Source: Chloroflexota bacterium
GTDB lineage: Bacteria > Chloroflexota > Anaerolineae > Anaerolineales > Villigracilaceae
Reading direction: 5' to 3'
Assembly: GCA_023484185.1 (NCBI GenBank)
Contig: JAMDBC010000033.1
Location: forward strand, 1 to 7,801
DNA: 7,801 bases
Under the pieces are notes generated by a model. It was not told the DNA's origin. It was given only the letters and a program-made list of their open reading frames with translations, and ran no database searches. The position numbers and the translations under genes are program-made. Positions 4,416 to 4,945 of this stretch are shown here, piece after piece. Positions within the stretch are counted from its first letter, which is position 1; each line of letters begins with the position of its first letter.

Positions 4416-4433
4416 AGGGAATAGTGAATAGTT
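4416..4433. repeat. Left copy of the 18-bp inverted repeat flanking the four-helix gene
   Basis: AGGGAATAGTGAATAGTT, containing GAATAGT twice in tandem. It is the exact reverse complement of 4928-4945. It lies 8 bases beyond the stop of the four-helix gene, in the spacer before uppP, with only scattered identity outside the 18 bases. Confidence 0.85.
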
Positions 4434-4441
4434 TGATGGGG

Positions 4442-4918
4442 TTATTGGCTTTCTAAAGATTCGGAGTCTTCAGGATAGTCGACCAGATACGATGCAGGGT
4501 CTTCCCGCGCAAAATGATTTACACCGGGCTCATTCGCTCCAATCTTGGAGCGCTTGAGATAAGAGATATAACCATTTATGATTCTTACCAACTCCTCGAC
4601 AAGTGTTGTCAACTCCTTATATTTTTCTACCGGAATAAACCCGAGCTCGTGAGCAAGTGTAATATGGCTATATGTTTCCGTTAGAGAGCCGCGGGCAATA
4701 TAACAAAAACGAACATTTTCTTGATAATAAAACCTTCCATGTCCTTCTGTAATATTCGCAGGGATACTGGAAACAGCGCGGCGAATTTGCTGATTTAGAT
4801 TCCATTTTTCTTCTGCAGGAAGCAAAGGCAAAATCTCTTTGTAAACCTTTAGAGCAAGCCCTTTCGACTTTTTCCACGCTTCGAGTGTCTCCAACCCCTG
4901 GACATTGTCATTTGCCAT
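4442..4918 (-). CDS. Four-helix-bundle protein, S23/23S rRNA intervening-sequence family
   Basis: This 158-residue protein shows the hallmarks of the four-helix-bundle (TIGR02436/S23) family first seen in intervening sequences of 23S rRNA genes. These are an N-terminal ETLEAWKKSKGLALKVYKEI helix, then IRRAVSSIPANITEGHGR at about residues 45-62, and FCYIARGSLTETYSHITLAHEL at about 70-91, with a last helix through LVEELVRIINGYISYLKR. The core function of the family is not established; related folds serve as accessory proteins in diversity-generating retroelements. After about residue 125 it has an acidic tail (NHFAREDPASYLVDYPEDSESLESQ) beyond the usual length of roughly 120 residues. The ATG at 4918 is chosen over a GTG at 4921 because GGAGG lies 4 bases upstream of the ATG. 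It starts 11 bases after the tgt stop and is flanked by an inverted repeat. Confidence 0.88.
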   Translation of the reverse strand: MANDNVQGLETLEAWKKSKGLALKVYKEILPLLPAEEKWNLNQQIRRAVSSIPANITEGHGRFYYQENVRFCYIARGSLTETYSHITLAHELGFIPVEKYKELTTLVEELVRIINGYISYLKRSKIGANEPGVNHFAREDPASYLVDYPEDSESLESQ

Positions 4919-4927
4919 CACGCCTCC

Positions 4928-4945
4928 AACTATTCACTATTCCCT
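4928..4945. repeat. Right copy of the 18-bp inverted repeat, overlapping the tgt stop
   Basis: AACTATTCACTATTCCCT on the plus strand, the reverse complement of 4416-4433. Read on the minus strand it encodes the final GNSE and TAG of tgt, then runs into the GGAGG ribosome-binding site of the four-helix gene. Confidence 0.85.

Follow-up and report, generated by a model that had tools for sequence, protein, structure and literature searches.

A single S23 gene between inverted repeats in the tgt-uppP operon

Why does one gene in the window (the whole 7,801-nt stretch of DNA analysed here) lie between perfect inverted repeats, lodged between tgt and uppP? The left arm, AGGGAATAGTGAATAGTT (4416-4433, + strand), lies 3' of the gene and comprises two GAATAGT heptamers plus edges. 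The right arm (4928-4945, - strand), its exact inverted copy, lies 5' of the gene and overlaps the 3' end of tgt. The perfect 18-bp repeat around one S23 gene, as reported by the first-pass annotation, is thus exact. With up to three mismatches allowed, AGGGAATAGTGAATAGTT had two matches in the window and none in any of 200 dinucleotide shuffles; loosely extended, the arms reach 26 nt at 88% (4411-4436 and 4925-4950). They are spaced about 490 nt apart, with the gene in between.

The enclosed ORF (4442-4918, - strand, from an ATG at 4918; 4442-4921 if a possible GTG start at 4921 is included) matches PF05635 (23S_rRNA_IVP, 111.8 bits, cut-off 33.8), the sole domain family matched, and TIGR02436 (four helix bundle protein, 109 bits, cut-off 24), and contains no transposase domain. 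It is the one such ORF between the arms, which bears out both the single-gene cassette and the membership of the rRNA-insert protein family that had been claimed for it. The S23 family includes a published pentameric four-helix bundle and Avd. The window protein has a solved relative in 2gsc (XCC0516, E-value of 2e-13) and matches the Avd family of diversity-generating retroelements by profile (E-value of 1.4e-7).

Upstream of the cassette lies tgt (queuine tRNA-ribosyltransferase, 4930-6120, alternative start 6060) and downstream lies uppP (undecaprenyl-diphosphatase, 3569-4375), all three genes being on the - strand. By the ORF coordinates, the tgt stop codon (TAG, 4930-4932, - strand) falls within the right arm, which therefore encodes the last Tgt residues. 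A Shine-Dalgarno-like GGAGG (4923-4927, - strand) abuts the inner edge of the same arm before the S23 start, and this putative ribosome-binding site is probably used for S23 translation. Lying in sense inside an operon, the cassette probably uses host transcription. It sits outside any rRNA gene, and the window yielded no Rfam match at the gathering threshold and no complete tRNA.

Our preferred answer, to which we give a slightly better than even chance on the strength of sequence comparison, is that there is one S23 cassette in the window, made up of a lone S23 gene and two inverted arrays of a 7-nt unit, all parts of the same element. The S23 protein would be the partner of its own repeat family, much as in REP/RAYT systems and with no known transposase.

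Inverted heptamer arrays flank most S23 genes in related genomes

The genome-wide evidence comes from relatives' genomes. A contig scan recovered 15 loci at 56-76% identity, from records titled Chloroflexi, Anaerolineae, Anaerolineales or Anaerolineaceae. One of these (L001) has the window's tgt-S23-uppP gene order, and seven (L008-L014) lie directly upstream of what we take, by eye, to be a pheT-like gene. Fifteen Anaerolineae genomes contained 128 PF05635 matches, 2 to 15 per genome, 100 of which were taken (23 of the 28 omitted score below 60 bits). Together with the window's gene this gave 101 genes, or 99 scored ones after the exclusion of L039 and L061 for short flanks.

For the arm score, the 120 nt preceding each gene were aligned with the 120 nt following it, the latter as reverse complement. 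The median score was 14.5 for own pairs vs 7.0 for mismatched pairs. Measured against mismatched pairs, the inverted flanks of 76 of the 99 S23 genes, the window's included, scored at the 95th percentile or higher, and those of 34 at the 99th or higher; 69 exceeded the 99th percentile of shuffles. Direct-orientation flanks passed the same two lines at five and four genes. The 23 genes that fall under the 95th-percentile line count against a partnership of protein and repeat. In a second set of 24 S23 loci, six of which were also in the first set, 14 had an inverted match of at least 10.5 and 10 were below.

The arms are periodic. Matches at lags of 7, 14 and 21 nt reached 0.43, 0.38 and 0.36 in upstream arms and 0.41, 0.37 and 0.34 in downstream arms, vs 0.25, 0.25 and 0.28 in control DNA some 640-700 nt upstream (n = 117); lag 8 was mildly raised in the arms (0.32 and 0.31). 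Unit types include GAATAGT, AGAGAAT, GTAATTG, AAGGATG, ATGGTTAATGG, TTCGATATTCG and TAGTTTG. Judged by these alignments, each arm is an array whose unit measures about 7 nt and varies from one S23 lineage to another, and the window 18-mer is one of many lineage-specific heptamer arrays, not a fixed end. A plain terminator is rejected for the window arms because of their spacing around a gene and because similar arms occur at most scored S23 genes; nor is the repeat unique to this locus, the outcome that had been named as favouring a terminator.

S23 cassettes mostly sit inside operons. Seventy-one of 92 S23 genes were co-directional with both neighbours (92 of the 101 were callable, and the figure has no random-insertion control), and the median distance from the upstream stop codon was 50 nt (n = 84). 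The S23 proteins are slightly acidic on average (median net charge -1), which we also count against their being partners of a repeat.

Arms change together and follow the S23 lineage

At 22 pheT-adjacent loci, arms scored 13.3 on average against their own partners, with a cross median of 7.0, and none of 10000 permutations was as high. L178 and L179, pheT-adjacent S23 genes without an arm match, were left out of this test; with them (24 loci) the values were 12.75 vs 6.5, again with 0 of 10000 permutations. For nine tgt-uppP loci, the observed mean was reached in 43 of 10000 permutations. The own partner was the row's best in only 9 of 22 and 3 of 9 cases because many loci share a unit. On the basis of these permutations, both arms change together. 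Chance is rejected by the window's shuffles, the 76 of 99 arms and the own-partner permutations.

Neighbour clustering and trees showed that S23 lineages mostly keep their operon site and unit, and many cassettes stay at one operon site across deep divergence, a further point against the partner reading. Different S23 genes of one genome carry different units, and one site can host different units. The trees indicate that some cassettes changed site, keeping their unit. The window and L049, both at tgt-uppP, share a clade of seven rows (100/92) with five S23 genes that have GAATAGT flanks; another operon is the site of all five, assigned by clustering for four and by eye for L166. Likewise, L172 and L184 adjoin another gene yet nest in the AGAGA pheT group (ten rows, 98/77, not starred), their arms being weak (10.0 and 9.5). 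A single clade was rejected for the 13 tgt-uppP S23 genes (p-AU 1.8e-5) and for the 22 pheT-adjacent (pheS-pheT) S23 genes (p 4.6e-4), both groups having been chosen after a first tree. The tgt-uppP site may be either an old home that copies left or one that was entered more than once.

Likeness of arms was also compared across 3587 pairs of S23 genes from different genomes and without similar neighbours, an upstream arm score of at least 14 counting as alike. Arms were alike in 12 of 30 pairs at 65% protein identity or more, in 3 of 93 at 55-65%, in 4 of 183 at 45-55% and in 10 of 3281 below 45%. The 12 alike pairs in the top class are not independent, as 11 involve L038, L086, L098, L110 or L114. 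As in REP/RAYT systems, the arm repeat family is specific to the protein lineage, here that of S23, with exceptions.

Occupied and empty tgt-uppP junctions

Within one family, 57 of 61 genomes had a uppP match, and 30 of these loci were read. Tgt lay upstream of uppP in 23, the stretches of the other seven having no Tgt match. Fifteen of the 23 junctions, whose comparison the first-pass annotation had proposed, lack S23, the Tgt match and uppP being 15-110 nt apart; six carry S23, and in two, which also lack it, the distance is about 570 nt. S23 genes at tgt-uppP in relatives have arms, and relatives with the gene but without repeats at this site, the outcome that had been set against a cassette, were not encountered. 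Sites without S23 and different units at one site led us to reject a fixed vertical gene with fixed repeats.

The closest relative by uppP, G132 (86%; Tgt 86%), has no S23 at tgt-uppP. Within its genus, which comprises six genomes, the alignment of DNA to the window is interrupted near the cassette in G132 (query 1077 to 1705) and in G146 (query 1103 to 1686); the latter also lacks S23 here and retains a ATGGTTAATAG stretch that is possibly a scar. In G006 and G053 of this genus, the alignment continues into the S23 gene, and the arms are ATGG-type. No insertion boundary or target duplication could be resolved at this junction, the nearest empty relatives being too diverged. The mobile cassette of the first-pass annotation thus stands in part: tgt-uppP is polymorphic between occupied and empty, and lineages appear to have changed site with their unit kept, a comparison from which we infer cassette movement.

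Two observations concern the same junction and genus. The genus of G132 contains a broken relative of the window's S23 gene (L260, G208:C70), on both sides of which GAATAGG-like repeats are visible by eye. Five S23-less tgt-uppP junctions (L189, L192, L197, L208 and L214) hold another hairpin family, in which CACAAAG/CACGAAG occurs with CTTCGTG/CTTTGTG; the junction may attract repeats in general.

Heptamer units are scattered in relatives' genomes

REP/RAYT repeats are dispersed in the genome of their gene; for S23, dispersal of the arm units was seen in relatives' genomes. In 151 genomes of one order, with the cassettes' own arms included in all counts and the kinship of genomes ignored, GAATAGTGAATAG was present in 17 and absent from 134. 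Its load was highest in G040 (9) and G002 (8), followed by 4, 3 and 2, with twelve genomes having one. G040 and G002 are the only two of the 151 with an S23 at least 66% identical to the window's. G014 has 45 GAATAGT hits and no GAATAGT-flanked S23 in the 6 of its 11 matches that were read.

The AGAGA pattern AGAGARYAGAGARYAG occurred in 16 genomes and was absent from 135. Genomes with an AGAGA-flanked S23 had 44 (G002), 7 (G053) and 5 (G132) copies. Among genomes with no such S23 among those read, G139 had 14, G006 had 6, G051 had 5, G076 and G077 had 4 each, and eight more had 1-3. A third pattern, GTAATTGGTAATTGG, occurred in 24 genomes: 10 of 16 with the L099 S23 lineage vs 14 of 135 without (Fisher p 7e-6). 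A split of the L099 lineage made by eye, with the counts in view, gave medians of 26 vs 0 (p 0.012). In its 16 genomes, the GTAATTG load rises with the arm score against (GTAATTG)n (Spearman 0.57, p 0.022), and the six with an arm score of at least 19 had 129, 97, 45, 34, 18 and 5 hits. Three genomes rich in GTAATTG without the L099 lineage (G059, 46; G072, 20; G158, 12) count against the partner reading, as do G139 for AGAGA and G014 for GAATAGT. By these counts, and these exceptions aside, each of the three units tested reaches its highest abundance in genomes that have an S23 with matching arms.

Pairing in RNA, accretion of repeats and candidate enzymes

The strongest alternative is that the cassette is an mRNA-borne intervening sequence with no mobility as DNA, a vertical operon gene whose paired arms are cut by RNase III, separating the S23 message. 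The window arms do pair in the predicted RNA fold (z -4.3), in line with the earlier proposal that the transcript could fold there, and both the sense orientation of 71 of 92 genes and the sites kept over long divergence agree with it. So does the 23S rRNA insert of Coxiella, with its stem, heptamers and S23 ORF, which RNase III cuts in vitro according to PMC4990558. Selection for wobble pairs in RNA was looked for and not found, as mismatches in 82 arm alignments had no G-U preference (84 vs 106, p 0.13), and this lends no support to the RNA-level idea of the first-pass annotation. As this alternative also leaves the scattered gene-less arrays, the empty sites and the changes of site unexplained, we regard it as unlikely.

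Heptamer arrays might instead be ordinary intergenic hairpins or slippage products that gather beside any gene. Arrays do occur at many places without S23, and a different hairpin family occupies some empty tgt-uppP sites. A 400-kb stretch of G002 contained 26 arrays at lag 7, compared with 0, 3, 8, 9, 2 and 0 at lags 5, 6, 8, 9, 10 and 11. The genome's own units were only slightly more frequent there than units from other genomes (median 3 vs 1, p 0.10), a trend only, which we also count against the partner reading. Such passive accretion is compatible with one inverted array pair found there around a non-S23 gene. It fits poorly with the fact that two of the four long-range 7-periodic pairs in this stretch are its two S23 genes, with the ratio of inverted to direct orientation (76 to 5 of 99) and with units that differ within one genome and follow the S23 lineage. 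We consider it quite improbable. The non-S23 pair, the one clear case in the 400 kb, consists of inverted TTTTACG arrays around a permease-like frame (G002:C2:12607-13415).

Retro-copying, in which S23 as an Avd relative delivers hairpin RNA to a reverse transcriptase in trans, has in its favour the profile match to Avd and the PF05635-Avd likeness published in the relevant part of PMC10053308. Only 7 of the 15 genomes had RVT_1, which was missing from both G006 and G008 despite their 15 PF05635 matches each; this absence is not proof because the genomes are drafts. Such copying seems to us very improbable. Weak PF05635 matches beside RVT_1 (G011:C63, G012:C195 and C37, and G014:C34, C59, C62 and C249) are probably Avd genes of diversity-generating retroelements.

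Y1 transposases were found in all 15 genomes. No heptamer arms were seen by eye at six Y1 loci read (in L237 a different ORF had been picked in place of the Y1 gene), and mobilisation of the cassettes by RAYTs is accordingly disfavoured. A defence gene is rejected, there being no PADLOC match. Two of the six Y1 loci (L231 and L232) have RAYT-like genes flanked by GC-rich palindromes; these form a REP-like system of their own in this genome group.

Relation to known repeat systems and proposed mechanism

In REP/REPIN systems with a RAYT gene (TnpA-REP), the inverted repeats that flank the gene are also dispersed between genes. S23 cassettes in relatives' genomes share this arrangement. The cassette would work in the manner of REP/RAYT yet falls outside that group, as its protein, a four-helix bundle, is not a Y1 HUH transposase; its arms, moreover, are 7-nt arrays. 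To our knowledge, no catalytic motif is known for S23. Cyanobacterial STRRs are likewise 7-nt intergenic arrays, and rRNA inserts have been known since 1990.

With the 23S rRNA intervening sequences of Coxiella and Leptospira, the cassette shares an S23 ORF in sense and terminal inverted repeats that can fold into a stem. It differs from them in lying in a protein-coding operon and in having lineage-specific units that are scattered in relatives' genomes. The account of the Coxiella insert in PMC4990558 describes a 28-bp terminal stem and two to three tandem heptamers before the S23 ORF, and it states that S23 proteins and rRNA intervening sequences lack an agreed function or origin. Avd of diversity-generating retroelements shares the protein family by profile and, in the portion of PMC10053308 that treats it, structural likeness; unlike such a retroelement, the cassette has tgt and uppP as neighbours, and the scan of 7 of the window's 37 ORFs showed no reverse transcriptase. 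The TAACTGA heptamers of Beggiatoaceae are also 7-nt intergenic arrays, described in the passages of PMC4679880 devoted to them as direct repeats; the author proposed there that a repeat-binding protein might be the mobile element, and 'S23' occurs nowhere in the text. PMC8700078, PMC10910872 and PMC5524665 name such S23 genes and, in the passages that do so, are silent on repeats. Beyond the Coxiella heptamers, we found no description in the open-licence PMC literature of a link between S23 and heptamer arms, nor any earlier description of an S23 gene between inverted heptamer arrays.

If the S23 protein is the partner of its repeat family, its most likely role would be to recognise its own lineage's unit, in the form of a hairpin or an array. 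Together with host enzymes it might then promote copying of that unit, which would on rare occasions relocate the gene together with its arms and would also give rise to many arrays that have the unit but no gene. RNase III might also cut the paired arms in mRNA. More broadly, and with somewhat less than even confidence, we suggest that S23 proteins are partners of a whole class of bacterial repeats, the four-helix-bundle protein of each lineage recognising its own heptamer hairpin and driving its copying as a transposase-free counterpart of RAYT/REP, and that rRNA inserts are copies that landed in ribosomal genes. Linking the origin of bacterial heptamer arrays to the function of S23 and rRNA inserts makes both testable, as each S23 lineage predicts the repeat that is bound and the repeat that is abundant in its genome. 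If true, this would be a selfish repeat system able to do without any recognised transposase, and rRNA inserts would be explained as one landing site of a wider element. The pattern suggests a selfish genetic unit of a little-known type.

Other features of the window and S23 genes on plasmids

Elsewhere in the window, possible remnants of an integrated element were identified by eye at 386-1141. We take these to be an excisionase-like HTH frame (386-676, - strand), a C-terminal fragment like that of a tyrosine recombinase (721-984, + strand) and a sequence like a tRNA 3' end that ends in CCA (about 1108-1141). A short imperfect inverted repeat, AGGACTTACGCA ... TGCGTAAGTCTT, at 6291-6355, between tgt and an ORF at 6379 that has no Pfam match, is presumably MITE-like.

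S23 matches were also found in 18 plasmid records, 12 of which were read. Eight of the 12 genes (seven cyanobacterial and one from Gemmatirosa) had an inverted match unreached by any of 200 shuffles, three had no arms and one had direct arrays on both sides. Three cyanobacterial plasmid S23 genes (L219, L221 and L223) lie inside CRISPR operons, in the orders cas6-S23-cas4 and cas10-S23-cmr3; the arrays of L219 are direct, not inverted.
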